Assembly (NCBI RefSeq): GCF_036059255.1
Contig: NZ_CP107947.1
Coordinates: 7,688,001-7,752,000, forward strand
Direction of reading: 5' to 3'
DNA: 64,000 nt
Source: Micromonospora sp. NBC_00389
Lineage (GTDB): Bacteria > Actinomycetota > Actinomycetes > Mycobacteriales > Micromonosporaceae
Shown here: positions 25,779 to 46,569 of the stretch, in pieces
How positions within the stretch are numbered: position 1 is the first letter of the stretch
How the letters are laid out: every line of letters starts with the position of its first letter
The notes under the pieces: model-generated
The model's input: only the letters and a program-made list of their open reading frames with translations
What the model was told of the DNA's origin: nothing
The model's database searches: none
Position numbers and translations under genes: made by a program

Positions 25779-26106
25779 TGTCCTTCTCCCCTGTTGTGAT
25801 GGGGATTCCATGTGCGGACCGGGGCGAGGATGACCGGTCAGACCGGTACGCGGCAGCGGGACGGAACACCGGTGGATGCGGAACGCACCTGGGCCCGGCG
25901 GGTTGCGCCTCCCACCGGGTCACCGGCCACCGTCACGGTCGCCGCCCCCACCCTATTTCCGCCGCCCCCATCGCGAAAGCCCACCGCCCGGGGTAGTTCG
26001 GGCGGGTTCCGGCGGACGCGCCGCGTCGCGGTGATGCTCGTCGATCCGGGTCAGGACCAGCGCGGGCCGCGCCGGACCGGCGGGCGGCTGCGGCGCCACC
26101 GGTTCA
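25779..26106. other. Non-coding region between kinase remnant and isomerase
   Basis: 328 bases, C-rich on the + strand. It should hold the promoter of the isomerase gene, but I see no clear -10/-35 pair, palindrome or ORF with a domain. A response-regulator gene would be expected just after a histidine kinase here and is absent. Confidence 0.4.
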
Positions 26107-29290: not shown

Positions 29291-32164
29291 TCAGGGCAGG
29301 GTCCACTTCTGGTTCGCGGCGGCGGTGCAGGTCCAGAGGTGCACGGCGGTGCTGTCCGCCGAGTTGTTTCCGGAGACGTCGAGGCACTTGCCGGACTGCG
29401 TGTTGCGCACCGTGCCGTCGGCCTGCGCGGCCCAGTTCTGCGCACCGGTCCCGTTGCAGGTCCAGAGCTGGATCTTGGTGCCGTCGGCCGAACCGCCGCC
29501 CGAGACGTCGAGGCACTTGCCCAATGCCTTGATCGTCGAGTTCGGCGTGACCGTCCAGGTCTGCGCCGTACTGCCGTTGCAGGTGTAGATCTGGATCTGG
29601 GTGCCGTCGGCGGTGGCGCCGGAGCGCACGTCCAGGCACTTGCCGGCCAGGCCCTTGATCGGACCGGCCCCGCCGGCGGGCGGTGCCCCGGTGGTGAAGG
29701 TGAACGCGTCCACGTCATAGAGCGCGCCGGTGCCCGACCCGGCGAACGTCAGGTAGAGCGTGGTGGTGCCGGTCGGCGGGTTGGTGATCGCCCCCGTCAC
29801 CGTGGTGAAGGTTTCCCAGCCCCCGGTGACCGGGACGGTGGCCGAGCCGAGCACCGTGCCGGTGGCCGAGCCGGCCCGGACCTGGAGTGTGCCGCCGGCA
29901 CCCGCCGAGGAGACCCGGGCGCTGAACGAGGTCACGTTGCCAAGCCGGTACGGCTGGAACGCGATCCAGTCGCCGTTGTTGATGTCGCCGACGGTCTTGC
30001 CGCCCTCGGCCGGGGTCTTGCTGAACACGTTGATGCCGGACGAGGTGCCGAAGAACTCGGCCTGCCGGTGCCGCGGCGGCAGCGTGTGCTGGGTGTGCGT
30101 GGTCAGCCCGCCGGCGTCGGTGTACTCGGCGTCGAAGATGGCGAAGATGTTCGCCGCGTCGTCGTGCTCACCGTCGACCGGGATGGTGATCGTGCCGGAG
30201 CAGCCGGTCTTGGAGGTGATCTGGTGCCCGTGCTGGTCGTGCCCGAGCACGTAGGTCATCTTGACCTTCGTGCAGTCGATCGTGCCGTCCTCCGGGTCGG
30301 TGACCGTGATGCTGAACGGCACCGTGTCGCCGAAGCTGAACAGTTGCCCGTTGCCGGGGCTGTTGATGGTCACCGTGGGCGCGGTGTTGCCGACGTTGAT
30401 CACCACGCTGGCGCTGCCGGTGGCGCCCTGCGGGTCCCGCACGGTCAGCGTCGCGGTGTAGGTGCCGTTGGTGGTGTACGTCTTCGACGGGTTGGCCGCC
30501 GTGGAGGTGGTGCCGTCACCGAAGTTCCACGAGTACGTCAGCGCGCCGCCCTCGGGGTCGGACGAGCCGGCCGAGGAGAACGTCACCGCCAGCGGTGCGG
30601 CACCGGAGGTCCTGTTCGCGCTGGCCGTGGCGTTGGGCGCCCGGTTGCCGCCCCCGACGTAATCGAAGCGGTAGAGCGCGGAGTTGGCGTCACCGTTGAA
30701 GTAGCCGGTGCCGTAGTCGAGCACGTAGTACGCCCCGTCCGGGCCGAACGCCGAGTCCATCACCTGCTTGCCGACCCAGGGGAAGGCGTCGATGGTGCCG
30801 CGGGAGCCGTCGGCGTTGACGTGGATCGGCTTGATCCAGCCGCGGCCGAACTCGCTGGCGAAGAACTGCCCGTCGAACGACTGCGGGAACTTCGTCGTCG
30901 AGGTCGACGAGGCGTTGTACCGGTAGACCGGGCCGCCCATCGGCGACTCGGAGCCGCCGCCGAACTCTGGCGGGGTGCCGGCGTCGCCGGCGTACCGGAT
31001 CCAGGCCGGCTTGGCCGCCGGCAGGGTGCCCAGCCCGGTGTTGCGGAACGAGTTGTTGGTCGGCCCGCCGGTGCAGTTGTACTTCGCCCCGCCGGTGTTG
31101 GCCGCGAAGTCCCACTCGTTGTACGTCTCGGTGCTGGTGTTGGTGCCGGTGCAGTACGGCCAGCCGTAGTTGCCCGCCGCGTCGACCCGGTTGAACTCCA
31201 CCTGGCCGGACGGCCCGCGGGTGGCGCTGGTGGTGCCGGCGTCCGGCCCGTAGTCACCGACGTAGACGACGCCGGTGGCCTTGTCCACGCTGATCCGGAA
31301 CGGGTTGCGGAAGCCCATCGCGTAGATCTCCGACCGGGTCCTGGCCGTGCCGGGCGCGAACAGGTTGCCCGCCGGGATGGAGTACGTGCCGTTGGCGTTC
31401 ACCTTGATCCGCAGGATCTTGCCGCGCAGGTCGTTGGTGTTGCCGGCGCTGCGCTGCGCGTCGTACGCCGGGTTGCGGTTGGTCCGCTCGTCGATCGGGG
31501 AGTAGCCGGCCGAGTCGAACGGGTTGCTGTCGTCGCCGGTGGAGAGGTAGAGGTTGCCGGCGGCGTCGAAGTCGATGTCCCCGCCGACGTGGCAGCACAT
31601 CCCGCGATCGGCCGGCACGTCGAGCACGTCGACCTTGCTGGCCTGGTTGATCGTGAAGTCGGCGTTGAGGGTGAACCGGGAGAGCCGGTTGACGCCCTGC
31701 CAGGCCGAGAAGTCGGTGCCGGTGGCCGGCGCGTCGCCGGCGGGCGTGGCGAGCGGCGGGGCGTAGTAGAGGAAGATCTGCCGGTTGCTGGCGAAGTTCG
31801 GGTCGACCCCGACGCCCTGCAGCCCCTCCTCGTCGTGGTTGTAGACCGGCAGGGTGCCGATCACGGCGGTGGTGCCGTTGGCGTCGGTGCGGCGCAGTGT
31901 GCCGTTGCGGGCGGTGTGCAGGACCGAGCGGTCCGGCAGCACGGCCAGCGACATCGGTTCGCCCATCTCGGCCACGCCGCGGGCGAGCTCGACCTGCTGG
32001 AAGTCGGTGGCGTTGATCGGGTGCGCCTGGGTGGGGGTGGGGCCGCCGAGCGCGGCCGGGCCGGCGCCGAGTGCGACCGTGCCGGCCGCGGCCACCAGCA
32101 GCAGGGCCGATCCGGCGGAGAACCATCGTCGGGATCGGTGGGTGGGAGCATCCTTCATGGACAT
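29291..32164 (-). CDS. Secreted PQQ-type sugar dehydrogenase with PKD, CBM and ricin-lectin domains
   Basis: 957 residues. N-terminal twin-Arg-like signal (HRSRRWFSAGSALLLVAAAG). Residues ~50-500 are a GSDH-type beta-propeller (GEPMSLAVLPDRSVLHTAR, EGLQGVGVDPNFASNRQIFLYY, CCHVGGDIDFDAAGNLYLSTGDDS, GFRNPFRISVDKATG, YGWPYC). Then a PKD domain (~505-585; YSWNFGDGT), a second Ig-like domain (~590-690), a CBM6-like domain and a C-terminal ricin-B lectin. This family oxidises sugars outside the cell; substrate and electron acceptor unknown. Start could also be the ATG at 32158. Confidence 0.9.
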   Translation of the reverse strand: MSMKDAPTHRSRRWFSAGSALLLVAAAGTVALGAGPAALGGPTPTQAHPINATDFQQVELARGVAEMGEPMSLAVLPDRSVLHTARNGTLRRTDANGTTAVIGTLPVYNHDEEGLQGVGVDPNFASNRQIFLYYAPPLATPAGDAPATGTDFSAWQGVNRLSRFTLNADFTINQASKVDVLDVPADRGMCCHVGGDIDFDAAGNLYLSTGDDSNPFDSAGYSPIDERTNRNPAYDAQRSAGNTNDLRGKILRIKVNANGTYSIPAGNLFAPGTARTRSEIYAMGFRNPFRISVDKATGVVYVGDYGPDAGTTSATRGPSGQVEFNRVDAAGNYGWPYCTGTNTSTETYNEWDFAANTGGAKYNCTGGPTNNSFRNTGLGTLPAAKPAWIRYAGDAGTPPEFGGGSESPMGGPVYRYNASSTSTTKFPQSFDGQFFASEFGRGWIKPIHVNADGSRGTIDAFPWVGKQVMDSAFGPDGAYYVLDYGTGYFNGDANSALYRFDYVGGGNRAPNATASANRTSGAAPLAVTFSSAGSSDPEGGALTYSWNFGDGTTSTAANPSKTYTTNGTYTATLTVRDPQGATGSASVVINVGNTAPTVTINSPGNGQLFSFGDTVPFSITVTDPEDGTIDCTKVKMTYVLGHDQHGHQITSKTGCSGTITIPVDGEHDDAANIFAIFDAEYTDAGGLTTHTQHTLPPRHRQAEFFGTSSGINVFSKTPAEGGKTVGDINNGDWIAFQPYRLGNVTSFSARVSSAGAGGTLQVRAGSATGTVLGSATVPVTGGWETFTTVTGAITNPPTGTTTLYLTFAGSGTGALYDVDAFTFTTGAPPAGGAGPIKGLAGKCLDVRSGATADGTQIQIYTCNGSTAQTWTVTPNSTIKALGKCLDVSGGGSADGTKIQLWTCNGTGAQNWAAQADGTVRNTQSGKCLDVSGNNSADSTAVHLWTCTAAANQKWTLP

Positions 32165-32451: not shown

Positions 32452-33519
32452 TCAGGCGCGGCGGTCGATCGCCTGTGCGGCCAGCGCGACCAGCGCGGCG
32501 CGGGCCTCGTCGGCCACCGTCGCGGTCTCCAGCGCGACCAGCGCGGCCTCGGTACGGACCCGGATCATCTGCTCGATCCGTTCCCGGGCGCCGGTCGCCT
32601 CGATGATCCCGCGCAGCTCCGCCGCGCCGTCAGCGTCCAGCGCTGGATTGCCGAACAGCTCCCGCAGCCTGGCGGTCTGCGGCCGGTCGGCGGCGCTACG
32701 GGCCAGTGCCATCATCACCGTCGGCTTGCCCTCGCGCAGGTCGTCCAGGACGGACTTGCCGGTGACCGCCGGGTCACCGAAGACGCCCAGCACGTCGTCG
32801 CGGAGTTGAAACGCGTCACCCAGCGGGTCACCGAACTCGCCCAGCGCGGCGATCAGCTCCGGCCCCGCGCCGGCCAGGGCCGCGCCGATCTGCAACGGCC
32901 GGGTCACCGTGTACCGGGCCGCCTTCATCCGGATCACGGTCAGCGCGCTGGCCACCGAGCCGTCGCCCACCCCGGAGACCAGGTCCAGGTACTCCCCCGC
33001 GATCACCTCGGTACGCATCAGCGCGAACATCCCGTACCCCCGGTGCACCTGCTCGGTGCTCAGGCCGCACTCGTGGAACATCTGGTCCGACCAGGCCGCG
33101 CAGAGATCCCCGCAGAGCAGCGCGGTGTTGCGTCCGTACGCCTCGGGGTCGCCACGCCACGACGAGCGGGCGTGCAGGTCGGCGAAGAGCCGGTGCACGG
33201 ACGGCTCACCCCGGCGGCGGTCGCTGCCGTCCAGGATGTCGTCGTGGATCAGCGCGAACGCGTGGAACAGCTCCAGTGCCGCCGCGGCCACGACGATCGG
33301 GGTGCCGTCGGCCGCCCCGGCACCGCGCCAGCCCCAGTAGCAGAAGAGCGGTCGCAGCCGCTTGCCGCCGGCCAGCACGAACCGGTACAGCGCGGTGAAC
33401 ACGCCGCGCGGCGCGCCGTCCGGCCAGTCCGGGCCCTGCCGGTCGAGGAAACCGGCCAACTCCGCGTCGAAGCGAGCCCGCAGCCCGCTGGCGTCGGTGG
33501 GCGCGACGGTGACCGTCAT
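32452..33519 (-). CDS. Polyprenyl diphosphate synthase (GGPP-type)
   Basis: 355 residues from the ATG at 33519, which overlaps the stop of the preceding gene by 4 bases. Trans-isoprenyl synthase motifs are intact: GGKRLRP, first Asp-rich motif HDDILDGSD, FQLRDDVLGVFGD as second Asp-rich region, and KPTVMMALA. It condenses isopentenyl diphosphate onto an allylic diphosphate; the small residues before the first Asp motif suggest a C20 or longer product. As the last gene of an operon that also encodes a UbiA prenyltransferase, it very probably makes the prenyl donor for it. Confidence 0.93.
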   Translation of the reverse strand: MTVTVAPTDASGLRARFDAELAGFLDRQGPDWPDGAPRGVFTALYRFVLAGGKRLRPLFCYWGWRGAGAADGTPIVVAAAALELFHAFALIHDDILDGSDRRRGEPSVHRLFADLHARSSWRGDPEAYGRNTALLCGDLCAAWSDQMFHECGLSTEQVHRGYGMFALMRTEVIAGEYLDLVSGVGDGSVASALTVIRMKAARYTVTRPLQIGAALAGAGPELIAALGEFGDPLGDAFQLRDDVLGVFGDPAVTGKSVLDDLREGKPTVMMALARSAADRPQTARLRELFGNPALDADGAAELRGIIEATGARERIEQMIRVRTEAALVALETATVADEARAALVALAAQAIDRRA

Positions 33520-34940
33520 GACCCCTCCCCCGGCCGGCCCGCCTCCGCGCCGCCCCCGGAGGTCAGCCCGGCCAGCTCCAGCAGCAGTGCCTTGACCTCG
33601 GTGGCGGCGATCCGCTCCCGGGCGGCGGTCGGGTCGGAGCAGAGCAGCACCGGAGCGTCCGCCGGGTCGGTCGGCAGTCGCCCGTGCGAGCCGCGTACCG
33701 CCCGCGCCCCGGCGTCCAGGCCGACCGCGCTCATCAGGTAGCGCATGCCCAGCTTCTTGCGGGCCAGCGCCACCCCGGCGCGACGCTTGGCCGCACCTGG
33801 CGCGGCCGGATCGAAGAACAGCTCGGCCGGGTCGTAACCCGGCTTCCGATGGATCTCCACCAGCCGGGCGAAGTCCGGTGCGCGGGCGTCGTCCAGCCAG
33901 TAGTAGTAGGTGAACCACGCGTCCGGCTCGGCCACCAGCACCAGCTCCCCGGCGCGTGGATGATCCAGCCCGTGCGCGGCCTTGCCCTCGGCGTCGAGCA
34001 CCTCGGCCACGCCGGGCAGCCCGGCGCAGAGCTTCGCCACCGCCGGCACGTCGGCCGGGTCCCGGACGTAGACGTGCGCGACCTGGTGGTCGGCGACCGC
34101 GAACGCCCGGGACGTCCACGGGTCGAGGTACTCCATGCCGGCCTGGGTGTGCACCCGCAGCAGCCCCTCGGCGCGCAGCAGCCGGTTGACGTCCACCGGC
34201 CGGGACACGTCGGTGATGCCGTACTCCGAGAGCACCACCACCGTGGCGTCGCGGGCCCGGGCGGCGTCCAGCAGCGGCCCGAGCACCGTGTCCAACTCGG
34301 CCGCCGCGGCCGCGGCCTGGGCCGAGGACGGGCCGTACCGTTGCAGGTCGTAGTCCAGGTGCGGGACGTAGACCAGGGTCAGGTCGGGCGACACGTCGGC
34401 CAGGATCTGTTCAGCCGCCTGGCAGATCCACCGTGACGAGGGCAGCCCGGCCGTCGGCCCCCAGTAGGTGAACAGCGGGAAGGTGCCCAGCCGCCCGGTG
34501 AGCGCGTCGTGCAGCTCCGGCGGGTCGGTGTAGCAGTCCGGCTCCTTGCGGCCGTCGGCGTAGTAGACCGGTCGCGGGGTGACCGTCCAGTCGACGTCCG
34601 CGCCCATGGCGTACCACCAGCAGACGTTGGCGACGGTGTAGCCGGGCTCGGCCCGACGGGCCGCCTGCCAGAGCTTCTCCCCGCCGACCAGCGCGTTGTG
34701 CTGCCGCCACAGCAGCACCTCACCCAGCTCCCGGAAATACCACCCGTTGCCGACGATCCCGTGCCCGCTCGGCGGCTCGCCGGTGAGGAAGGTGGACTGC
34801 ACCGAGCAGGTCACCGCGGGCAGCACGGTGCCCAGCTCGGCCCGGAAGCCGCCGTCGGCGACCCCCCGCAGCCGAGGCATGTGCGCCAGCAGTCGCGGGG
34901 TCAGCCCGACCACATCGAGCACCACCAGTCGCCGGCTCAT
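33516..34940 (-). CDS. EboF-like phosphodiesterase / nucleotide pyrophosphatase
   Basis: 474 residues, alkaline-phosphatase superfamily. N-terminal metal strand RRLVVLDVVGLTP, nucleophile region LPAVTCSVQSTFLTGEPPSGHG with Thr, HGIVGNGWY, metal region YVPHLDYDLQRYGP, then VVLSEYGITDV and ADHQVAHVYVRDP. In generic NPPs the SEYG position is S-D-H-G, so one metal ligand pair is altered. No signal peptide, so it acts in the cytoplasm. It overlaps both neighbours by 4 bases. Position and family fit the sixth gene of ebo clusters. Confidence 0.8.
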   Translation of the reverse strand: MSRRLVVLDVVGLTPRLLAHMPRLRGVADGGFRAELGTVLPAVTCSVQSTFLTGEPPSGHGIVGNGWYFRELGEVLLWRQHNALVGGEKLWQAARRAEPGYTVANVCWWYAMGADVDWTVTPRPVYYADGRKEPDCYTDPPELHDALTGRLGTFPLFTYWGPTAGLPSSRWICQAAEQILADVSPDLTLVYVPHLDYDLQRYGPSSAQAAAAAAELDTVLGPLLDAARARDATVVVLSEYGITDVSRPVDVNRLLRAEGLLRVHTQAGMEYLDPWTSRAFAVADHQVAHVYVRDPADVPAVAKLCAGLPGVAEVLDAEGKAAHGLDHPRAGELVLVAEPDAWFTYYYWLDDARAPDFARLVEIHRKPGYDPAELFFDPAAPGAAKRRAGVALARKKLGMRYLMSAVGLDAGARAVRGSHGRLPTDPADAPVLLCSDPTAARERIAATEVKALLLELAGLTSGGGAEAGRPGEGS

Positions 34941-36142
34941 CGCGGCACCGCCGCGCAGGGCGTCGTGGTCAGCTCCGGGGTCAGGCCCAGGCCGACCAGC
35001 TCGGCGCGAGCGAAGGCCAGCTCGGCGGCGATGCCGGCGGCCAGCTCCGCGTCGGTGCCCGGCCGCCGTGCGGCCGGCAGCACCCCCCAGGTGTACGTCT
35101 CCACGTCGAGGTGGTCACAGCCGGCCGCCGGCCCGGCGTAGAGCGCGGCCAGCGCGGCGCGCAGCACCGGCAGGGTGGAGCCGACCGGCTCCTCGGGTGG
35201 GGCGTGCAGGGGCACGTGGTAGTGCACCCGCCACGGGCCGGGCAGCGCCGCGTCGAGCGCCGCGTCCAGGTCGTCGGCCGCGTACGCCGGGTCGGCCGGG
35301 TCGACCCCGCCCGCGCAGCCGGCGCTCCGGGTCTGGTGCAGGAAGCGCGGCTCCACCCAGCGGCGCAGCGCGTCGGCGCCGCCGGCCGGGTCGGCCGCCT
35401 CGACGGCGGCGGAGACCTGGACCTTGACCACCGGCAGGCCGGCCGTCCGCAGCCGGTCCAGCGCCGCGCCGGGCTCCTCCCACGCACAGGCCAGGTGGGC
35501 GAGGTCGAGGCAGATGCCCAACCGCTCAGTGTCCATACCGGACAGTAGCGTGGCGGCCTGGCCGGTGCTCTCCACCACACAGCCAGGCTCCGGCTCGAAG
35601 CCGACCCGCACCTGCCGGCCGGTGTCCCGCTGCACCGCGGCCAGGCCGGCGGCGAGCTGGTCCAGCCGACGTCGGGCGGCATCGGCCTGGTCGGCGCCCC
35701 AGGGCTGCCGCCAGGCCAGCGGCAGGGTGGAGATCGAGCCCCGGGCGGCGTCGTCGGGTAGCAGGTCGGCGAGCACCCGGGCCAGATCCAGGGTGTACGT
35801 CAACCGCTGCTCGGTGGTCCAGTCGGGGCGGTAGACGTCGTGCTTGACCACCGGCGCCTGGAAGGCCGCGTACGGGAAGCCGTTGAGGGTCACCACCTCC
35901 AGCCCGCGCGCATCCAGCTCGGCGCGCAGCCGGCGGCGCAGCGCCGGGTCGGCGGCCAGCTCGGCGGCGACCGGTGCGGCCAGCCACAGGCCGAGGCCGA
36001 GCAGGTCGGAGCCGAGCGCCGCGCGTACCGGCACGGCGTAGGTGTCCAGTTGAGCGAGGATGCCGGCGAACTCCTCGGCGGGGTGCACGTTGGTGCAGTA
36101 GCCGAGGTGGACGGTCTCGCCGCCGGCATGCCGCAGCCGCAT
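34937..36142 (-). CDS. eboE: Metabolite traffic protein EboE (xylose-isomerase-like TIM barrel)
   Basis: 401 residues. Opening VHLGYCTNVHPAEEFAGILAQL and the segment VTLNGFPYAAFQAPVVKHDVYRPDW are typical of EboE; metal ligands in VGFEPEPGCVVES, GICLDLAHLACAW and VHYHVPLHAP. Active-site architecture is that of a TIM-barrel isomerase, but no reaction is known for EboE; in cyanobacteria and algae-associated bacteria ebo genes are linked to export or trafficking of secondary metabolites. Its ATG shares one base with the stop of eboB (TGATG). Confidence 0.88.
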   Translation of the reverse strand: MRLRHAGGETVHLGYCTNVHPAEEFAGILAQLDTYAVPVRAALGSDLLGLGLWLAAPVAAELAADPALRRRLRAELDARGLEVVTLNGFPYAAFQAPVVKHDVYRPDWTTEQRLTYTLDLARVLADLLPDDAARGSISTLPLAWRQPWGADQADAARRRLDQLAAGLAAVQRDTGRQVRVGFEPEPGCVVESTGQAATLLSGMDTERLGICLDLAHLACAWEEPGAALDRLRTAGLPVVKVQVSAAVEAADPAGGADALRRWVEPRFLHQTRSAGCAGGVDPADPAYAADDLDAALDAALPGPWRVHYHVPLHAPPEEPVGSTLPVLRAALAALYAGPAAGCDHLDVETYTWGVLPAARRPGTDAELAAGIAAELAFARAELVGLGLTPELTTTPCAAVPR

Positions 36143-36999
36143 CAGCTACCACCGCGCAGGATCGAGTTGCCGGTCTGCGGGTCCACGGCGGCGGCGGAGT
36201 CCAGGTCGCTCAGGTCGAGCCGGCCGGACTGCCCGTAGAACTCCACCGGGTTGCGCCACAGCACCCGGTCGACGTCGTCGTCGGTGAACCCGGCCAGCAG
36301 CATCGCCTCGCCGGTGGCCCGGGTCAGCAGCGGGTCGGAGCGCCCCCAGTCGGCGGCCGAGTTGACCAGCATCCGCTCGGTCCCGTACTCCCGCAGCAAC
36401 TCCACCATGCGGGGCGGGGACATCTTGGTGTCCGGATAGATGGAGAAGCCCAGCCAGCAGCCGGTGTCCCGGACCAGCTTGACGGTCACCTCGTTGAGGT
36501 GGTCGACCACCACCCGGCCCGGCTCGATGCCGGACTCGTTGACCACGGCGAGGGTGCGCTCGACGCCCCGCGCCTTGTCCCGGTGCGGGGTGTGCACCAG
36601 CGCCGGCAGGTCGTGCGCCACGGCCAGCGCGAGCTGCGCGGCGAACGCCTCGTCCTCCTCCGGGGTCATCGAGTCGTACCCGATCTCGCCGACCGCGACC
36701 ACCGCGTCCTTGTCCAGGTAGCGGGGCAGCAGGTCGAGCACCGGCCGGCAGCGCGGGTCGTTGGCCTCCTTGGGGTTCAGCGCCACCGTGGCGTGGTGCC
36801 GTACCCCGAACTGCCCGGCCCGGAACGGCTCCCAACCGATCAGCGAGTCGAAGTAGTCGGCGAACGAGGCGGCGCTGGTGCGCGGCTGGCCCAGCCAGAA
36901 CGACGGCTCCACCACGGCCCGGACCCCGGCGGCGGCCATCCGTTCGTAGTCGTCCGTGGTGCGTGAGGTCATGTGGATGTGCGGGTCGAAGATGCGCAT
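36142..36999 (-). CDS. eboB: TatD-like metal-dependent hydrolase EboB
   Basis: 285 residues from the ATG at 36999 (the longer frame upstream lies inside eboA). MRIFDPHIHMTSRT gives the HxH metal site; GEIGYDSMTPEEDEAF, LVHTPHRDKARG, VVVDHLNE and LVNSAADWGRSDP supply Glu, His, His and Asp in the TatD/amidohydrolase order. Predicted soluble hydrolase. Coupled to eboA upstream (TGATG overlap) and eboE downstream. Substrate unknown. Confidence 0.88.
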   Translation of the reverse strand: MRIFDPHIHMTSRTTDDYERMAAAGVRAVVEPSFWLGQPRTSAASFADYFDSLIGWEPFRAGQFGVRHHATVALNPKEANDPRCRPVLDLLPRYLDKDAVVAVGEIGYDSMTPEEDEAFAAQLALAVAHDLPALVHTPHRDKARGVERTLAVVNESGIEPGRVVVDHLNEVTVKLVRDTGCWLGFSIYPDTKMSPPRMVELLREYGTERMLVNSAADWGRSDPLLTRATGEAMLLAGFTDDDVDRVLWRNPVEFYGQSGRLDLSDLDSAAAVDPQTGNSILRGGS

Positions 37000-37637
37000 C
37001 ACGCCTCCGTGGGGGTGGGCCGGTCGACGGTGCCGGTCCCGCCGCTGTGCGCGGTGAGCCGGTCGAGCAGGGCGGTGGCGTCGGCGGGCAGCTCCCGGCC
37101 GGCGGCGTGCCGCTCGGCGGCCAGCGCGGCCAGCATCGCGGCCAACTCCCCGTCGGCGCGGGTGTCGAGATCGGCCACCACGGCCAGCGGCACGCCGGAG
37201 AACACGCACTTGAGCACCGCCTGCCGCCAGGCCGCCGGATCGAGGTGCCGCGCGTACGGGCCGAGCGCGGCGGCGACCAGCCGGGTGTCGTTGGTCCGGA
37301 TCGCGTCGTGCAGCAGCGGCACCCCGGCGGCGCCGATCGGCAGCAGCGGCAGGGCGCGCAGCACGGCCCGCCGTTCGGCGGCGTCGCCGTTCCGGTAGAG
37401 GGTGTCGGCGTACTCGCCGTGCTCGGCGGGCAGGGCGGTGAGCAGCAGCACCCGGGCCGCGTCGTCGGCGGTCCAGCCGGGGACGTCGGGCAGCGCGGCC
37501 CGGCCGCAGCGCCGGCCGGCGGCCGGGAACAACCGGGTGATCGCGGTGGGCTCGGCCCCGACCCGGCGCAGCGCCGTGTCCAGCCAGTCAGGGTCGGGTA
37601 CGCCCCGCAGCGCGGCCCGTAGTGAATCCGGTGTCAT
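36999..37637 (-). CDS. eboA: EboA-domain protein
   Basis: 212 residues from the ATG at 37637, preceded by GGAGGAG. All-helical; the diagnostic stretch is YRNGDAAERRAVLRALPLL, then AIRTNDTRLVAAALGPYA, AWRQAVLKCVFSGVPL and ADLDTRADGELAAMLA, which is the EboA signature as I know it. No enzymatic function is established. It is the marker gene of the ebo cluster. The gap to the preceding isomerase is 57 bases, the longest inside this operon, so an internal ribosome site or weak promoter may exist there. Confidence 0.88.
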   Translation of the reverse strand: MTPDSLRAALRGVPDPDWLDTALRRVGAEPTAITRLFPAAGRRCGRAALPDVPGWTADDAARVLLLTALPAEHGEYADTLYRNGDAAERRAVLRALPLLPIGAAGVPLLHDAIRTNDTRLVAAALGPYARHLDPAAWRQAVLKCVFSGVPLAVVADLDTRADGELAAMLAALAAERHAAGRELPADATALLDRLTAHSGGTGTVDRPTPTEA

Positions 37638-37694
37638 CCCGTCTCCTCCCTCGTGCTGCTCCGCAGGTGCCCCACGCACACCCTCCGTGCTGCT

Positions 37695-38669
37695 TCAACC
37701 CATACGACGGCCACTGCCCGGATAGGCGACCATGGCTGCCGCGTCCGCTGACGCAGAGCGGAGGGTGCCGGCGGGCACCTCGTCCTCGGTGCGGCCGCCC
37801 GTCGCGGCGGCGCGCAGGAACTCGATCGACCGGGCGGCCACGGCGGGCGCGGCGTGCGAGTCCCGGGGCAGCTCGACGGCGACCAGCCCGCGGTAACCGG
37901 CCTGGGCCAGGGCCGCCAGCACCGGCGGGAAGTCGATCTCGCCGGTGCCGAACTCCAGGTGCTCGTGCACCCCCCGGCGCATGTCGTCGATCTGCACGTT
38001 GACCAGGTGCCCGGCCACCTCGGCGACGCACTGCGGCACAGGCCACGGCTCCAGGCAGCGGCAGTGCCCGATGTCGAGGGTGATGCCGAAGCGGGCCGGG
38101 GCGCCCAGCGCCGCGCGCAGCCGACGCCAGCCGGCGATGTCCTCGACCAGCATCCCCGGCTCCGGTTCGAAACCGAGGGTGACGTCGGCGGCGTCGGCGG
38201 CGTCGACGACGGCGGCGCAGCCGGACACCAGCCGGTCCCAGGCGGTCTGTGCCGGCACCGGATCGGGGCGGACGCCAGCCCAGAAGGAGACCGCCTCCGC
38301 GCCGAGGTCGGCGCCGATCCGGACGGCTCGGCGCAGGAACTCGATCCGCCGGGTCGGGTCGTCGTGCAGCAGCGTCGGGGCGTGCTTGTGCCACGGGTCG
38401 AGCAGGTAGCGGGCTCCGGTCTCGATCACCACCGCGAGGCCCAGCGCGCTCAGCCGCCGGCTGACGGCGGCCGTCCGGCGGGTGAGGCCGGGCGCGAACG
38501 GGTCGAGGTGGTCGTGGTCCAGGGTCAGCGCCACCCCGACGTACCCGAGGTCGGCGATGACGGCCAGCGCGTCGTCGAGCCGGTGGTTGGCGAAGCCGTT
38601 GGTCCCGTAGCCGAGGCGCAGCGTCGAGGCGTCGGCCGGTGGCCCGGGGCGGGGCTGCGGGGCGGTCAT
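37695..38669 (-). CDS. Sugar phosphate isomerase/epimerase in the ebo-like operon
   Basis: 324 residues. TIM barrel related to EboE in its opening (LRLGYGTNGFANHRLDDALAVI) but otherwise a standard AP-endonuclease-2 isomerase: LDHDHLDPF, LGFEPEPGMLVED, GITLDIGHCRCLE, VNVQIDDMRRGVHEHLEFG, LVAVELPRDSH. Such enzymes isomerise or epimerise sugars, keto-sugars or cyclitols. It overlaps the UbiA gene by 4 bases. Two different isomerase-like barrels in one operon suggest successive modifications of one ring or sugar. Confidence 0.85.
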   Translation of the reverse strand: MTAPQPRPGPPADASTLRLGYGTNGFANHRLDDALAVIADLGYVGVALTLDHDHLDPFAPGLTRRTAAVSRRLSALGLAVVIETGARYLLDPWHKHAPTLLHDDPTRRIEFLRRAVRIGADLGAEAVSFWAGVRPDPVPAQTAWDRLVSGCAAVVDAADAADVTLGFEPEPGMLVEDIAGWRRLRAALGAPARFGITLDIGHCRCLEPWPVPQCVAEVAGHLVNVQIDDMRRGVHEHLEFGTGEIDFPPVLAALAQAGYRGLVAVELPRDSHAAPAVAARSIEFLRAAATGGRTEDEVPAGTLRSASADAAAMVAYPGSGRRMG

Positions 38670-39598
38670 GTCGGGGAGACCTTCCGGGCCAGCCGCCGGC
38701 CCAGCGGCGCCGCGGCCGCGACGGCCAGCCCGAGCAGGCCAGCGCCTCCGCGCGCGGTGAGCGCTCCCTGCAGGGCGGGCAGTCCGGTGATCCCGGCGCC
38801 GACCGCGGCGCGTACCCGGCCGGCCGACGGGTCGCGGACCACCTGGGCCTGGGCCGCGCCATAGCGGGCGGCGTACCAGCCGGCGAGCACCGCGGGGAGC
38901 GCGGCGGCGAACCGGACCGGCAAGGCAGGGCGGTCATCAGCAGCGGACGGGCCGTCGGTCGGGGTCGGCTCGGCGCGCCGGGCCGCGGCGCCGGGTGCCG
39001 CGACCGCGGCGCTGGCGGCGACCAGGGCCGTGCCGGCCAGCGTGCGCAGCGGCAGGGCGGCGTCGGCGCCGGTGACCTCCCGGCGGGACAGTGCGGTGAC
39101 CGTCCAGGTGTGCGCGGCGACGGTCACCGCCGCTGGCAGCGCCCGGGTCAGCCGACCGCCGGACGCGCCGAGCAGCACGTCCAACCCGCGACAGGCGGCC
39201 ATCACAGCCGGCCCGGCGGCGGTGTTCTTGGCCAGCAGGTCGTACCCCCAGATGGTGGCCGCCAGCGGCACGGCGAGCGCGGCGGCGCGGCGACCGCCCA
39301 CGGCGGCGGCCAGGCCCACCCCGGCGGCCGTGAGGCCGGCGGCGAGCCCGACCGCGGCGACCGGGGCGACCCGACCGCTGGGGATGGGCCGCTCGGGCCG
39401 CTCGACGGCGTCCAGCCGCCGGTCGGCCCAGTCGTTGGCGGCCATGCCGGCCCAGTAGAGCAACACCGAGGCACCGGCCAGGGCGGGGGTACGCCGGCTC
39501 AGCGCGCCGGCCGCCGCGGCGCCGGCGACCACGTCCCCGGGCACCGAGAGCGCGGCCGGCGCCCGGACCAGCTCGGCGAGGTCAGCCAACGTGGTCAT
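38666..39598 (-). CDS. eboC: UbiA-family prenyltransferase EboC
   Basis: 310 residues from the ATG at 39598. About eight membrane helices. First Asp-rich motif NDWADRRLD followed by ERPERPIPSG, and the second YDLLAKNT region, place it in the UbiA superfamily (SCO7050-/EboC-like). UbiA enzymes attach a prenyl chain from a diphosphate to an aromatic or polyol acceptor at the membrane. The prenyl donor is likely made by the synthase at 32452-33519, the acceptor by the Ino1-like enzyme upstream. Overlaps both neighbours. Confidence 0.88.
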   Translation of the reverse strand: MTTLADLAELVRAPAALSVPGDVVAGAAAAGALSRRTPALAGASVLLYWAGMAANDWADRRLDAVERPERPIPSGRVAPVAAVGLAAGLTAAGVGLAAAVGGRRAAALAVPLAATIWGYDLLAKNTAAGPAVMAACRGLDVLLGASGGRLTRALPAAVTVAAHTWTVTALSRREVTGADAALPLRTLAGTALVAASAAVAAPGAAARRAEPTPTDGPSAADDRPALPVRFAAALPAVLAGWYAARYGAAQAQVVRDPSAGRVRAAVGAGITGLPALQGALTARGGAGLLGLAVAAAAPLGRRLARKVSPT

Positions 39599-40748
39599 GG
39601 GCACCGTCCCGGCCGGCGTGCAGCCGCTCGGTGAAGTCGACCAGCCGGGCCCACTGCTCGGCCAGCGAGTGGGTGGGCATGCCGAGCGGGTCCTTGAAGA
39701 AGAAGCCCAGCTCGGCCAGCGGCCCGACGTGACCGGCGGCGTGCGCGGCGGCGGTGAGCCGGGCCAGGTCGAGCACCAGGGGCGCGGCCAGCGCGGAGTC
39801 GCAGCCGTGCCAGGTGAACTCCATCCGCATCCCGGTGCCGAGGAAACCGGCGAAGGTGATCAGATCCCAGGCGGTCTTGAAGTCGCCCAGCTCCTCGACG
39901 TACTCGATCCGGGTGCCGCCCTGCGGCACGTAGCCCAGCGTCTCGCCGAGCACCCGCTGCTTGCTCTGCACCTTGGCCGCGTTGGCGGCCGGGTCGGCGA
40001 GGGTGGCGCCGTCACCGCCGCCAAGCAGGTTGACCCCGGACCAGGACCGCACGGCCAGGTTGCGCATCGCGAACATCGGCGCGAGCACCGACTTGACCAG
40101 GGTCTCGCCGGTCTTGCCATCGTGCCCGGCGTACGGCAGTCGGGCCTGTTCGGCCAGCGCGGTCAGCGCCGGCAGCCGCAGCCCGGTGGACGGGGTGAAG
40201 TCGACGTACGGGCAGCCGGCCAGCAGCGCCGCGTACCCGTACAGGGAGCTGGGAGGCAGCACCTCGTCCGGGCCGGTGAGAGCGGCGCGCAGCGCGTCCG
40301 GGTCGGCGTGCCCGGGGTGCGGTCGGGGGGCCGGTTCGGTGGCGGAGACGTTGACCACCACCACCCGGTCCAGCCCGTGCCGCTCGCGGAAGGCGGTGAG
40401 ATCGCGGACCACGGCGGCGGCCCGGTCGGCCTGGGTGGCGCCGGCCGGTGCCGGACGCAGCTCCTGCTCGACGGCTGCCAACTCGTCGGGGAGCGCGGCG
40501 ACCAGCCGCCCGGGGATGACACCGGTGTCGGCCAACGCCTCGGCCCGCTTGCACAGCGGAGTGGTGGCCAGGTCGTGACCGCCGAAGACCAGATCGGCGA
40601 AGGACGGCAGGGCGGGGCCGCGCAGCTCCGGCAGCTCGGTGACGCAGCCGGTCGGCCCGGCCAGGCCGGCCCGCAACGCGAGCCCTCCGACGATGCTGGT
40701 GGTCGCGACGGAACCGCGCGCTCCTACCAGCCAGACACCCGTTCGCAT
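39582..40748 (-). CDS. Inositol-3-phosphate synthase-like protein
   Basis: 388 residues. N-terminal Rossmann opening VWLVGARGSVATTSIVGGL; DRVVVVNVSATEP; YVDFTPSTGLRLPAL; the catalytic-domain signature GHDGKTGETLVKSVLAP with its lysine; LGYVPQGGTRIEYVEELGDFKTAWD; EFTWHGCDSALAAPLVLDL. This matches the short bacterial Ino1 family that cyclises a sugar phosphate with NAD. First gene of the eight-gene operon. In classical ebo clusters this slot is held by a dehydroquinate-synthase-like cyclase (EboD), so here a different cyclase fold may supply the ring. The organism probably has a separate housekeeping ino1. Confidence 0.88.
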   Translation of the reverse strand: MRTGVWLVGARGSVATTSIVGGLALRAGLAGPTGCVTELPELRGPALPSFADLVFGGHDLATTPLCKRAEALADTGVIPGRLVAALPDELAAVEQELRPAPAGATQADRAAAVVRDLTAFRERHGLDRVVVVNVSATEPAPRPHPGHADPDALRAALTGPDEVLPPSSLYGYAALLAGCPYVDFTPSTGLRLPALTALAEQARLPYAGHDGKTGETLVKSVLAPMFAMRNLAVRSWSGVNLLGGGDGATLADPAANAAKVQSKQRVLGETLGYVPQGGTRIEYVEELGDFKTAWDLITFAGFLGTGMRMEFTWHGCDSALAAPLVLDLARLTAAAHAAGHVGPLAELGFFFKDPLGMPTHSLAEQWARLVDFTERLHAGRDGAHDHVG

Positions 40749-40783
40749 GGTGCTCCTTCCCGTTCAGGAGGAACCGTCGGTGC

Positions 40784-40824
40784 AGTTAAATATAGGAATA
40801 TCAGAATATTCTTCGGAAAGATAC
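40784..40824 (-). promoter_or_regulatory. AT-rich promoter/operator of the ebo-like operon
   Basis: A sharp AT-rich island in otherwise >70% GC DNA, 36-76 bases upstream of the first start codon. It contains GAATAT-CAGA-ATATTC (40796-40811) as an exact inverted repeat and TATATTTAA-like sequence on the - strand suited to a -10 element. Likely the operon promoter with an overlapping repressor site. Confidence 0.65.
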
Positions 40825-41372: not shown

Positions 41373-42599
41373 TCAGACGGCCGCCACGGCCAGCGCCGGT
41401 TCCACCTCGGTCCAGGAGGAGCCGATCTCCGCCGAACGGGTCACCGCGTCCAGCACGAGCTGGACCTGCAACCCGTCGGCGAACGACGGAGCCGGGTCGA
41501 CCCCGGTGGCGATCGCCTCGATGAAGTCGCGCATCTGGTGGGTGAAGGAGTGCTCGTAGCCGATGATGTGGCCGGGTGGCCACCACGCCGACATGTACGG
41601 GTGCTCGCCCTCGGTCACCAGGATGCGGCTGAAACCCTGTTCCACGCTGGGCCGGGAGGCGTCGTAGAACTCCAGCTCGTTGAGGCGTTCCAGGTCGAAG
41701 ACCACGCTGCCGAGCGAGCCGTTGATCTCGACTCGCAGGCCGTTCTTGCGGCCGGTGGCGAACCGGGTCGCCTCGTACGTGGCCAGGGCGCCACCGTCCA
41801 GCCGGGCCACGAAGACCGCGGCGTCGTCGACGGTGACCGGCCCGGTGGCCGCGCCGGTGCCGTCGACCGGACCGCCGCCGTCCACCGTGGCCGCCAAGCC
41901 GCTCGACCCGGCCGGCAACGGTCGTTCCTTGACGAAGGTCTCGGTGACCGCGCTGACGCCGGTGATCCGCTGGCCGGTGACGAACTGGGTCAGGTCGATG
42001 ATGTGCGCACCGATGTCACCCAGCGCGCCGGAGCCCGCCCTGTCCTTCTGCAACCGCCAGACCAGCGGGAACTGCGGGTCCACGATCCAGTCCTGCAGGT
42101 ACGTCGCCCGGACGTGCCGGATCACCCCGAGTCGTCCGTCGGCGACCAACTGGCGCATCATCGTGACCGCGGGAACCCGGCGGTAGTTGAACCCGCACAT
42201 CGACCGCACCCCGGCGGCCCGGGCGGTCTCCGCCGCAGCGGTCATCGCCCGCGCCTCGGCCACCGTGTTGGCCAACGGCTTCTCGCACAGCACGTGCTTG
42301 CCGGCGGCCAACGCGGCGAGGGCGATCTCGGCGTGGCTGTCGCCCGGTGTGCAGATGTCGACCACGTCGATGTCGTCCCGGTTGATCAGGTCACGCCAGT
42401 CCGTCGTGTACGCGTCCCAGCCGAGCCGGTCGGCGGCGTCGGCCACCTTCGCGGTGTCCCGGCCGCAGATCAGCGCCATTCGGGCCCGCGCCGGCAGGTC
42501 GTACACGCGGTTCACGGTGCGCCACGCCTGTGAGTGCGCGGCGCCCATGAACGCGTAGCCGACCATGCCGACCCGCAGTTCTTTGTCTGTCGTGGACAA
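41373..42599 (-). CDS. Gfo/Idh/MocA-family oxidoreductase
   Basis: 408 residues. Rossmann part GMVGYAFMGAAHSQAWRTV, then VDICTPGDSHAEIALAALAAGKHVLCEKPLANTV with the conserved EKP lysine, and SGALGDIGAHIIDLTQF with the D/H catalytic pair. These enzymes oxidise or reduce sugars and cyclitols (inositol 2-dehydrogenase, glucose-fructose oxidoreductase and 3-keto-sugar forming members). Last gene of the ROK/ABC operon, 20 bases after the binding-protein stop. Together with the isomerase at 24.8 kb and the DUF1080 protein it would fit a keto-sugar route. Confidence 0.92.
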   Translation of the reverse strand: MSTTDKELRVGMVGYAFMGAAHSQAWRTVNRVYDLPARARMALICGRDTAKVADAADRLGWDAYTTDWRDLINRDDIDVVDICTPGDSHAEIALAALAAGKHVLCEKPLANTVAEARAMTAAAETARAAGVRSMCGFNYRRVPAVTMMRQLVADGRLGVIRHVRATYLQDWIVDPQFPLVWRLQKDRAGSGALGDIGAHIIDLTQFVTGQRITGVSAVTETFVKERPLPAGSSGLAATVDGGGPVDGTGAATGPVTVDDAAVFVARLDGGALATYEATRFATGRKNGLRVEINGSLGSVVFDLERLNELEFYDASRPSVEQGFSRILVTEGEHPYMSAWWPPGHIIGYEHSFTHQMRDFIEAIATGVDPAPSFADGLQVQLVLDAVTRSAEIGSSWTEVEPALAVAAV

Positions 42600-42619: not shown

Positions 42620-43672
42620 TCAGAACCCGAGCTTCTCGTAGCTGCCCGCGTTCTCCTTGGTGATCGTCTCGGAGGCGAGGGTCACTTCCTTGGGCACCTG
42701 CAGCTCCGTGAGGTCCCCGAGGCCCCGGCCCTGGGCGACGAGCCGGGCGAGCGAGATCGCCGAGGAGGCCATCGACGGGTTGTAGGTGACCGTGGCCTTG
42801 AGCACGCTGTTGTCGGCCTTGATCGCGTCGATCGCGAGCTTCGAGCCGGCGCCGCCGACCATGAAGAACTCCTTGCGGCCAGCCTGGTTGATGGCGGCGA
42901 GCACGCCGATGCCCTGGTCGTCGTCGTGGTTCCAGATGGCATCGATCTTGGGCAGCGCCTGGAGCAGCTGGGCCGCCTCGCGCTGGCCGCTGTCGGAGGT
43001 GAACTCGGCCGAACGGCGGTTGGACACCTTGAACCCGTACGTCGCCAGGGCCGCCGTGAAGCCGGCGCTGCGCTCGACGGTCAGCGGGATCTCCAGACCG
43101 GCGATCTCGCCGATGACCGGGTTGGTGACGCCCTTGTCCTTGAGCTGCCTGCCGATGAAGTGGCCGGCCGAGACGCCCATTCCGTAGTTGTCACCCTTGA
43201 TGACCAGCCGCGAGGCCAGCGCGTCGGGGAAGACCCGGTCGAGGTTGACGATCGGGATGCCCGCCTGCATCGCCTGGAGGGCAACGGCGTTGACCTCCTT
43301 GCCGTCGTGCGGCAGCACGACGATGATGTCCGGCTTCTGGGCGATCAGCGTGCCGAGCGTGGAGCGCTGGGCCTCGGAGGTCGTCCCACCGTCGACCTCC
43401 TTCAGCTCCACATCGGAGTACGCGGCAGCCTGGGCCTTGGCGTTGGCGTGGATCGCGCCCATCCAGCCGTGGTCGGCCGCGGGGGCGGAGAACCCGATGA
43501 CGACCTTCTTGCCCGGGGCGTTGTTGCCGGCGCCGTCTCCGGCGGCCTTGGTCTGGGTGCTGGCGGCCGGGGTGTCGTTGCTTGTGCATGCTGTGAGCAG
43601 GGTGGCGGCGCCGACGGCGGCCCCGCCGAACAGCAACCGACGGCGCGACAGGTCGCGACTGTGCTGGGTCAT
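42620..43672 (-). CDS. Sugar ABC transporter substrate-binding lipoprotein
   Basis: 350 residues from the ATG at 43672 (AGGAGGTCGTC upstream). Signal peptide with RRRLLFGGA and lipobox LLTAC, so a membrane-anchored lipoprotein. Type I periplasmic-binding fold of the ribose/xylose/inositol group: VVIGFSAPAADHGWMGAIH, KPDIIVVLPHDGKEV, GIPIVNLDR, IDAIWNHDDDQGIG. It delivers a monosaccharide or cyclitol to the permease encoded next upstream. The HGWM motif resembles binding proteins next to Gfo/Idh enzymes; the ligand is not identified. Confidence 0.92.
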   Translation of the reverse strand: MTQHSRDLSRRRLLFGGAAVGAATLLTACTSNDTPAASTQTKAAGDGAGNNAPGKKVVIGFSAPAADHGWMGAIHANAKAQAAAYSDVELKEVDGGTTSEAQRSTLGTLIAQKPDIIVVLPHDGKEVNAVALQAMQAGIPIVNLDRVFPDALASRLVIKGDNYGMGVSAGHFIGRQLKDKGVTNPVIGEIAGLEIPLTVERSAGFTAALATYGFKVSNRRSAEFTSDSGQREAAQLLQALPKIDAIWNHDDDQGIGVLAAINQAGRKEFFMVGGAGSKLAIDAIKADNSVLKATVTYNPSMASSAISLARLVAQGRGLGDLTELQVPKEVTLASETITKENAGSYEKLGF

Positions 43673-43767
43673 GACGACCTCCTGGGAGCGGGTTTGAGTG
43701 GTGAGGGTGTGCGAGGTCCGGCCACTGTCGAATATCTCGACGTCGCCAGGGACAACGGTGCGGTGCG

Positions 43768-44886
43768 TCAGGTTGCGGTGGTGACCCTGTTCCGCGCGAG
43801 GAGCCGAGTGAAGGACTTGAACTGGAACTGCTGGACCAAGACGGCGGCGACGATAATGCCGCCCTTGACCATGTTCTGCGCCTCGATGGAGAGGCCGTTG
43901 ATGGCGAAGAGGTTGGTGATCGTGGCGAAGATGATGACGCCGAGCAGCGAGCCGACGATCGTGCCCCGGCCACCGCTGAGCAGTGTTCCGCCGATGATCG
44001 CGGCGGCGATCGCGTCCAGCTCGTAGAGGTTGGCCATCGCCGCCTGGGCCGAGGTGGCCTGGGAGGTGAGCATGATGGCGGCGATGCCGCAGCAGAGGCC
44101 GGACAGCGCGTAGAGCAGCATGGTGTGCCGGCGGACGTTGATGCCGGCCAGCCGCGCGGCCTCCGGGTTGCCACCGACGGCGATGGTCCGCCGACCGAAG
44201 GTCGTCCGGTTGAGCAGGATCCACCCGGCCAGGACGACCGCGCCGAGGATGTAGACGAGGATCGGGATCCCGAGCACCTTGCGGGCCGCGATGTCGTTGA
44301 TGAAGGTGCTGCTCGACACCTGGGTCTGCTTGTTGGAGATCGACGCGGCGAGCCCGCGGGCGGCCACCAGCATCGCCAGCGTCGCGATGAACGGCACCAG
44401 CCGCCCGTACGAGATGAGCACGCCGTTGACCAGACCCACGCAGATGCCGACCACGATCGCGGCGAAGATCATGCCGCCGGCGCCGTAGCTCTGGGTGGCC
44501 ACCGTGGTGCACCAGACCCCGGCCAACGCGACGATCGCACCGACCGAGAGGTCGATCCCCCCACCGATGATCACGAACGTCATGCCCACAGTGACCACGC
44601 CGACGACGGAGGCCAGTTGCAGGATGGCCAGGATGTTGTTCCAGACCCAGGTGGGGTCGTCGTAGAGATCAGGCTTGGTGATCGCCCCCACCACGATGAG
44701 CGCGGCCAGCACCCCGATCAGACCGAGGTTGCGCTTGGCGCCGTCGCCGCCGTCGCCCCGCCACCAGGAGAGCCGGTTTCCGGTCGAGGCCGCCCGGTCG
44801 CCGGCCGCCGCCGTCTCGGCTGGGGACTGCGCCGGCACGTGCGGGCGCTCCGGTGTCGCGGTGGGAGTGGGAGTCGCGTCGCTCAT
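43768..44886 (-). CDS. Sugar ABC transporter permease (RbsC-like)
   Basis: 372 residues with about ten helices, BPD_transp_2 family. GGIDLSVGAIVALAGVW, the INGVLISYGRLVPFIATL-like region and SGLCCGIAAIMLTSQ are typical of ribose-type permeases. A ~60-residue Pro/Thr-rich cytoplasmic lead precedes the first helix. Its start overlaps the ATPase stop by 4 bases. Forms the channel of the importer with the two-domain ATPase and the lipoprotein. Confidence 0.93.
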   Translation of the reverse strand: MSDATPTPTATPERPHVPAQSPAETAAAGDRAASTGNRLSWWRGDGGDGAKRNLGLIGVLAALIVVGAITKPDLYDDPTWVWNNILAILQLASVVGVVTVGMTFVIIGGGIDLSVGAIVALAGVWCTTVATQSYGAGGMIFAAIVVGICVGLVNGVLISYGRLVPFIATLAMLVAARGLAASISNKQTQVSSSTFINDIAARKVLGIPILVYILGAVVLAGWILLNRTTFGRRTIAVGGNPEAARLAGINVRRHTMLLYALSGLCCGIAAIMLTSQATSAQAAMANLYELDAIAAAIIGGTLLSGGRGTIVGSLLGVIIFATITNLFAINGLSIEAQNMVKGGIIVAAVLVQQFQFKSFTRLLARNRVTTAT

Positions 44887-46490: not shown

Positions 46491-46569
46491 GGTCTCCTCC
46501 TCGCTCACGACGGTTGTTCGGTTGGCGATTGCGGGCTCGCGGGCGTCGTCCCGGTCTGCGACTGCGGGT

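Follow-up and report, generated by a model that had tools for sequence, protein, structure and literature searches.

The ebo operon (eboA-F), named in 2016 and found in eustigmatophyte plastids, Bacteroidetes and Cyanobacteria, clusters the genes of EboA, EboB, EboC, EboE and EboF with that of EboD, a sugar-phosphate cyclase similar to dehydroquinate synthase (DHQS). A prenylated cyclitol has already been proposed as the product of the EboD-type operon (PMC5133447; PMC6282210); a full ebo cluster is part of the EDB cluster of Pseudomonas fluorescens NZI7 (PMC6282210), which is of the EboD type and is tied to indole production in E. coli (review PMC9655573), and the Maribacter EboC (UbiA-297), itself in a conserved ebo context, farnesylates quinolines in vitro (PMC9235831). 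A cyclitol-forming cyclase is combined with a UbiA-superfamily prenyltransferase also in the BE-40644 pathway of Actinoplanes, in which, however, the cyclase is a sugar-phosphate cyclase (EEVS) and the UbiA protein is other than EboC (PMC5133447). Here we describe an ebo operon of Micromonospora sp. NBC_00389, contained in a stretch of 64,000 nucleotides (the window; positions 7688001-7752000 of the one-contig 7.87 Mb genome). It shares with the known operons the clustered EboA, EboB, EboC-like, EboE and EboF proteins, but it is without EboD, and an Ino1 cyclase with an extra TIM barrel occupies the EboD slot; in Micromonospora and close genera a polyprenyl diphosphate synthase is added. We propose with moderate confidence that this actinobacterial form of ebo, in which an Ino1-type cyclase and its partner TIM barrel replace EboD, makes a prenylated cyclitol by reactions whose kind, order and product we infer below.

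Eight tightly packed open reading frames (ORFs) run on the minus strand from 40748 to 32452. The first, INO (39582..40748, 388 residues), is an archaeal-type Ino1 of the myo-inositol-1-phosphate synthase fold and stands in the EboD slot (PF07994 163 bits against a cut-off of 25, PF01658 101 against 27). It is followed by EboC (38666..39604, 312 residues), a UbiA-superfamily prenyltransferase of the SCO3242 type (PF01040, 58 bits against 34.2) with a GTG start and an alternative ATG at 39598; TIM (37695..38669, 324 residues), the xylose-isomerase-like barrel that accompanies INO (PF01261, 123 against 31.1); EboA (36999..37637, 212 residues), a helical-repeat protein; EboB (36142..36999, 285 residues), a TatD-like metal-dependent hydrolase (PF01026, 49.5 against 27); EboE (34937..36142, 401 residues), a second TIM barrel (PF01261, 41.9 against 31.1); EboF (33516..34940, 474 residues), an alkaline-phosphatase-like phosphodiesterase (PF01663, 216 against 23); and the polyprenyl diphosphate synthase PPS (32452..33519, 355 residues), a lineage-specific add-on (PF00348, 154 against 27). 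INO and EboC overlap by 23 bases from the GTG start, or by 17 if the ATG two codons further on is taken; the overlap is 4 bases for EboC/TIM, EboE/EboF and EboF/PPS, and 1 base for EboA/EboB and EboB/EboE, while TIM and EboA are separated by a gap of 57 bases. The packed one-strand block of eight genes with a single gap, described earlier in a sequence-only reading, was therefore recovered, and the gene families assigned there were borne out by the Pfam and NCBIfam searches. EboA and EboE, for which that reading had considered scores below the family thresholds, lie above the curated cut-offs (158.7 bits against 50 with NF035938, EboA_domain, and 409 against 250 with NF035939, TIM_EboE). The TatD-like EboB and the phosphodiesterase EboF are found in the same cluster, as in known ebo operons, and each is 50% identical to its Ketogulonicigenium counterpart. 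The 76 bases from 40749 to 40824, at the end of the range read earlier, are upstream DNA outside the ORFs. The DNA ahead of INO contains a palindrome (GAATATTC); it was dropped as a candidate, being present in 1 of 68 upstream regions.

In a phylum-wide sample of 396 genomes, EboA was found in 18; in a sample of 374 from the class, 88 have EboE above cut-off. An SCO3242-type EboC above its cut-off is present in 17 genomes out of 392 from the phylum. All 17 belong to the 18 with EboA, of which G279 is the remaining one, and the two genes lie at neighbouring coordinates. For the survey, the phylum sample supplied 18 loci and the class sample 80 (handles beginning with L), each at most 20 kb long. 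These 98 loci were searched with hidden Markov models (HMMs) built from both ebo types, and 91 loci having EboE, EboB and EboF on one strand were counted, the window's own locus being outside the 91. Five EboE-only loci (L179, L207, L210, L221, L222), a truncated EboE paralogue added deliberately (L223) and L172, in which EboA, EboB, EboE and INO are present and EboF is absent, were dropped before counting. The 91 loci hold several per genus, so the counts are not independent. At a threshold of at least 30 bits, INO was matched in 84 loci, EboC in 89, TIM in 89, EboA in 91 and EboD in 0; at 100 bits the numbers were 83, 87, 85, 87 and 0, respectively. The order INO-EboC-TIM-EboA-EboB-EboE-EboF is common to 78 of the 91 loci, and nearly all full-cluster loci examined that are without EboD have another cyclase in its place. 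In this way the earlier suggestion that Ino1 fills the cyclase slot was supported and extended to a conserved arrangement (INO in 84/91 actinobacterial loci, EboD in 0/91). Among 80 named loci found through EboE (62 from Micromonospora), 67 have INO and the remaining 13 have their first cluster gene at most 350 bases from the locus edge.

Seven of the 91 loci are without INO. Three of them (L166, L196, L197) stop at contig boundaries before or about the expected INO position, two (L111, L159) sit in genomes where another cluster does have INO (L108 and L169, respectively), and L121 seems decayed, with an internal TGA in EboC, EboE in pieces, and INO and TIM missing; the seventh, L191, is weighed below. 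Protein searches with INO and TIM were left aside, the best 120 of 7952 and 6222 matches, respectively, being nearly all from Micromonospora and relatives. As separate observations on EboE, a lone gene lies beside type II polyketide genes in Streptomyces sp. NBC_01244 (L128, 9989-11167), the other ebo genes not being in the stretch covered, and genomes of family f90 (e.g. G673:C40:148851-149516) carry truncated relatives of EboE, which score below cut-off and align to positions 1-242 of the model only.

The two cyclases were then compared on plasmids, where 47 records with EboE were available, 31 actinobacterial and 16 others. INO is present in 28 of the 31 actinobacterial records, none of which is among the close EboD records (best 40 of 115 listed; ranks 17-40 are at 33-39% identity). 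An EboD relative of at least 43% identity is present in 15 of the 16 others, and the sixteenth, Gemmatirosa (Gemmatimonadota), has INO and TIM instead. Overall, INO alone occurs in 29 records, EboD alone in 15, neither in 3 and both in 0 (Fisher 1e-9, with many Streptomyces records near-identical and not independent); in addition, a Gloeothece plasmid record has EboD at 49% identity and no EboE match. The EboD model found nothing in 91 of 91 actinobacterial loci, its 7 positives being its own building loci and hence not an independent control; single EboD queries (phmmer) still matched the DHQS of this genome, at 116 bits, and these own-genome matches are far from the window. TIM is a second gene travelling with Ino1, which the sequence-only reading had not remarked. 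Its family gave no match in the 7 EboD-type loci examined, and Ketogulonicigenium, of the EboD type, has another TIM barrel without BLAST match to that of the window. Since the TIM family tracks INO, as in Gemmatirosa and in the haloarchaea and YcaO clusters described below, and gives no match in these EboD-type loci, INO and TIM behave as a pair.

For trees of EboC, EboF, EboE and EboB, alternate survey loci were combined with L123, L124 and L129 and with further loci of the EboD type (seven), of haloarchaea (three) and of Gemmatirosa (one). In none of the four did the EboD-type sequences form a split, and no clean two-clade division was seen. Gemmatirosa grouped with actinobacteria for EboC (0.993), with the EboD type for EboF (0.899) and for EboE (0.897, beside Mycetohabitans), and with Deinococcus for EboB. 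This lack of a clean split and the shifting placement of Gemmatirosa suggest that the switch of cyclase was probably not a single event. In the EboE tree, L210 and L222, both actinobacterial and EboE-only, group among the EboD-type sequences. In Aureibacter (L130, 3835-5103) and Mycetohabitans (L127, 5999-7081), ferritin-like genes (PF12902) lie upstream of the ebo cluster, which is of the EboD type.

INO has the NAD-binding and catalytic domains of Ino1 with the active-site Asn and Lys, and gave no NCBIfam match at E 0.001. Its closest solved structure is the Archaeoglobus fulgidus Ino1 (1u1i, 234 bits), with which the catalytic Asn and Lys positions are shared; we know of no ebo-like operon context reported for that enzyme. 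N240, K259, K263, K291 and K352 are identical in 102 of 102 aligned rows, of which 86 are from actinobacterial clusters, and are retained also in the two further Ino1-family proteins encoded elsewhere in this genome. Eight of the 11 positions checked, namely these five, D210, K212 and D317, are invariant in 93 cluster rows (the 86 actinobacterial rows, with 7 more contributed by Gemmatirosa, the haloarchaea and the YcaO clusters described below). N240, K263 and K352 correspond to positions mutated in aligned PDB entries, while we take K259 and K291 to be active-site positions and assume the roles of all these residues. The predicted activity is the conversion of glucose 6-phosphate into inositol phosphate; the size of the ring that INO may form is uncertain, because 6k96, of the same fold, is a five-membered-cyclitol-phosphate synthase.

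Actinobacteria need inositol and the Ino1 fold is a housekeeping one, which would fit an INO supplying inositol for ordinary phosphatidylinositol or mycothiol and lying in the operon by chance. We rejected this explanation as extremely improbable. In fact, the cluster INO recurs in the operon, at 84 of 91 loci against about 0.7% per locus expected by chance from the copy number in this genome, and it is distinct from the two other Ino1-family genes: in the INO tree the sequences from actinobacterial clusters, Gemmatirosa and YcaO clusters form one clade (0.991), the haloarchaeal forms come next, and the two paralogues, the sole outgroups, lie apart on long branches.

The other core proteins were examined in the same way. 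The predicted TIM model (predicted local distance difference test, pLDDT, 89.8) is a sugar-epimerase-like barrel, with the sugar 3-epimerase UlaE (3cqj) as best structural match (E 1.5e-14), and it has invariant Glu, Asp and His residues presumably of the metal-binding kind. EboC is below the classical model NF035940 (prenyl_rel_EboC; 120 bits against 250) and above NF045897 (SCO3242_trans; 373 against 260), unlike UbiA-297, a flavobacterial EboC; the first Asp-rich motif, NDxxDxxxD, is present in 17 aligned rows. EboA had no Pfam match above cut-off and is below the full-length model NF035937 (EboA_family; 77.6 against 320), its score above cut-off being to the domain model. It is predicted as an all-helical repeat (pLDDT 94.7) with a best PDB match at a non-significant E of 0.41, in keeping with the proposal that EboA is a scaffold (PMC6282210). 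A fusion of EboA to a xylose-isomerase-like domain has been described in Actinobacteria (PMC5133447).

On this basis, INO would convert glucose 6-phosphate into an inositol phosphate, EboF would remove or exchange the phosphate, and TIM and EboE would isomerise or epimerise a keto intermediate. EboC could then attach a short prenyl chain (C15-C20, from PPS in this operon) to the cyclitol in the membrane, with EboB trimming and EboA as scaffold, and the product would be a membrane-anchored prenylated cyclitol serving an exported partner. Gene content, conservation, the replacement of EboD and the conservation of the INO active-site residues are established by the present analysis. The strongest argument for a ring-bearing product is that unrelated cyclases converge on one slot: if two of them fill it, the shared product most likely has a cyclitol ring, so that the exchange for Ino1 would give independent support to a ring-containing ebo product and turn the guess made for EboD into a testable prediction.

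Several points weigh against a prenylated cyclitol made in this way. We know of no ebo product that is a prenyl-cyclitol, and the core operon is without the dehydrogenase that would make an inosose. L191 is a true exception, a cluster without INO and with a Gfo/Idh gene at the INO position, and L147, L149, L167 and L191 are without TIM at 100 bits despite room for it; these loci show no absolute requirement for either INO or TIM. Close to the INO active site, three positions are variable in the 93 rows (D289, E in 20; D295, N in 3; H209, seven residues). A second Asp-rich motif was not evident by eye in the alignment of 17 EboC sequences, which covers both ebo types, while a complete predicted site has been reported for the Nostoc EboC (PMC6282210) and the Maribacter EboC is active (PMC9235831). 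Moreover, the acceptors of tested EboC relatives are aromatic quinolines, cyclitols not being among the substrates described in the accessible text (PMC9235831), and expression of the EboD-type EDB cluster in E. coli yields indoles (review PMC9655573).

As for PPS, the sequence-only reading had assigned a dedicated prenyl-donor enzyme to the system and had asked how generally it and Ino1 co-occur. Tabulated across actinobacterial genomes, Ino1 is general, as seen above, while the polyprenyl synthase is found mainly in Micromonospora and close genera: among the 80 named loci, PPS lies at most 600 bases after EboF in 58/62 Micromonospora, 2/2 Verrucosispora, 3/3 Asanoa, 2/2 Plantactinospora and one unclassified Micromonosporaceae, so that its occurrence with Ino1 is not confined to this strain. 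One of the four Micromonospora loci without it (L061) ends 747 bases past EboF. On the other hand, it follows EboF in 0 of 10 loci of Nonomuraea, Sphaerisporangium, Actinacidiphila, Catellatospora, Planosporangium and Dactylosporangium, and PPS was rejected as a part of the general ebo system; the last three genera belong to the same family as Micromonospora, and therefore PPS is not even family-wide. In the survey, PPS comes directly after EboF in L112 and L204, of the same genus, and PPS genes with other sequences do so in L145, L146 and L220, belonging to other subfamilies where scanned (L145, L220); L117 has a PPS on the opposite strand 53 bases away, and L119, L148 and L168 have one about 8 kb upstream. 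From these scattered positions and subfamilies, prenyl-donor genes were added more than once and are not core. Four PPS copies are present in the genome. The closest solved structures to that of the operon are a geranylgeranyl diphosphate (GGPP) synthase (3lk5, 254 bits) and a (2E,6E)-farnesyl diphosphate synthase (8f8f, 251 bits), and a Phe five residues ahead of the first Asp-rich motif suggests a C15-C20 product. The EboF-adjacent PPS of L145 (6861-8231) is matched best by the model of the family 2 encapsulin cargo polyprenyl transferase (386 bits, below the cut-off of 450).

The genes around the operon offer different views of its role. Downstream, GSDH (29291..32164, minus strand, 957 residues) begins 287 bases past PPS and encodes a glucose/sorbosone-dehydrogenase-like protein (PF07995, 116 bits) with PKD, CBM6 (PF03422) and ricin-type lectin (PF00652) domains; it is probably exported, its N-terminus resembling by eye a signal peptide. 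GSDH is a recurrent neighbour, detected by HMM in 45 of the 91 survey loci in the stretch covered (38 on the same strand). It is present also in 62 of the 74 named loci, mostly Micromonospora, whose sequence extends beyond EboF by more than 4.5 kb. Among sample genomes with PF07995 and EboE above cut-off, it lies within about 11 kb of EboE in 8 of 11 against 0.28 expected from copy number, in a post hoc test whose significance is descriptive, since the pattern was first noticed in the window and survey and the 11 genomes include this one. ScyD/ScyE-family genes occur near 3 of the 91 survey loci and in two Streptomyces plasmids. These links, like that of the Gfo/Idh gene below, are associations only. 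The window encodes one more xylose-isomerase-like TIM barrel (24771-25811, minus strand), which lies downstream of the operon at a distance of about 7 kb and shows a weak likeness to IolE (43 bits against 290).

The recurrence of exported oxidoreductase-like genes such as GSDH also bears on the nature of the product, which could be a prenylated aromatic or quinol if dehydration made the ring aromatic ahead of the EboC step; such oxidoreductases would then be served by a redox-active molecule in the membrane. The quinolines accepted by EboC relatives (PMC9235831), the plastocyanin-like domain on a Natronococcus GSDH and the precedent of BE-40644, a farnesylated cyclitol-derived product (PMC5133447), are consistent with it. 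By contrast, about half of the survey loci are without GSDH in the stretch covered, and the TIM model is nearest to epimerases and not dehydratases, the hydratase 8ro4 being only at rank 45 among its matches. Moreover, we know of no redox phenotype for ebo, and on balance we regard such a product as quite unlikely. Another possibility is that the ebo proteins are a metabolite-export machine which moves a cytoplasmic intermediate outward, any cyclitol lipid being only a carrier. On Streptomyces plasmids the clusters adjoin biosynthetic genes (polyketide-type in L129, a condensation-domain protein in L124), and genes of the ScyD/ScyE family and for multicopper oxidases in L123 and L132; however, six of the seven core proteins resemble metabolic enzymes and none a transporter, which makes an export machine unlikely.

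Upstream of INO on the same strand lies a second recurrent neighbour (41373..42599), a Gfo/Idh/MocA oxidoreductase (PF01408, 93 bits) below the cut-offs of the levoglucosan-dehydrogenase model (372 against 650) and of IolG (129 against 355). It is preceded by sugar ATP-binding cassette (ABC) transporter genes and a ROK-type gene (42620..47748, minus strand; binding protein, permease at 43768-44886, ATPase at 44883-46640, ROK-type gene at 46570-47748), with NCBIfam matches to ribose/arabinose-type transporters and a ROK kinase/regulator all below cut-off and an uncertain link to ebo. A same-strand Gfo/Idh gene is near 14 of the 91 loci, in 7 of them together with the transporter's binding protein. 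With the Gfo/Idh gene at the INO position of L191 and the likeness of TIM to sugar 3-epimerases, this could indicate a sugar-uptake and modification system, in which TIM, EboE, Gfo/Idh, the transporter and GSDH would act on an external saccharide, with ebo as the processing arm. Most survey loci, however, are without the transporter in the stretch covered (binding protein in 9/91), and EboC and PPS would be left unexplained, so that we judge such a system very unlikely and retain the prenylated cyclitol as the preferred product.

If this product is right, the Ino1 form would take glucose 6-phosphate as its starting material and could be studied in Streptomyces, which is genetically tractable and in which it occurs. 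The remainder of an ebo operon presumably lies with SCO3242 (EboC) and SCO3243 (INO) of S. coelicolor. These two genes, annotated as a putative transferase and a myo-inositol phosphate synthase, respectively, are among those of the CDA cluster, SCO3210-SCO3249 (PMC3610822). No description of an Ino1-type ebo was found in the literature searched, mostly outside subscription journals and in the accessible parts of the papers; parts of it are known to annotators, as NCBI already names an SCO3242-family prenyltransferase.

A related set was found outside bacteria. Plasmids of Halocatena, Halobaculum and Natronococcus carry together genes for TatD, two TIM barrels, UbiA, INO and the phosphodiesterase, with BLAST identities to the window of 44-46% for INO, 42-48% for EboB, 39-44% for EboF, 33-40% for EboC and 28-32% for TIM; the likeness rests on these identities and on record annotation, because the counting HMMs were built with haloarchaea included. 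EboA and EboE were not detected within the 21 kb covered at each of the three loci, and the Halocatena proteins reached at most 27 bits with the curated EboE model, against a cut-off of 250. With the co-inherited TIM and the haloarchaeal set, a smaller core can be defined for reconstitution. One annotated Halomarina INO gene is outside such a cluster, while a second Halomarina record carries no annotation. In a discussion that concerns inositol lipid headgroups, HVO_B0213 of Haloferax volcanii has been treated as a relative of Ino1 (PMC8305020). A broader idea, to which we give a distinctly low probability, is that ebo of both types may make a new isoprenoid cofactor, either a prenylated cyclitol or a cyclitol-derived quinol, as membrane partner of exported oxidoreductases (GSDH-like, ScyE-like, multicopper oxidases), with EboD and Ino1 plus TIM separately recruited for the ring and the pathway present also in haloarchaea without EboA and EboE. 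Beside the Natronococcus Ino1 cluster, a GSDH-like protein with a plastocyanin-like domain is encoded at 14574-17237 of L137.

Finally, plasmids of Roseomonas and Hymenobacter have an INO relative and a TIM 48-51% identical to that of the window in a separate, YcaO-containing cluster. In L139 (8977-18289) and L141 (8818-17519), this comprises Ino1, YcaO-like, Gfo/Idh, TIM isomerase and PIG-L deacetylase genes, and it looks like a separate uncharacterised pathway from a cyclitol phosphate.

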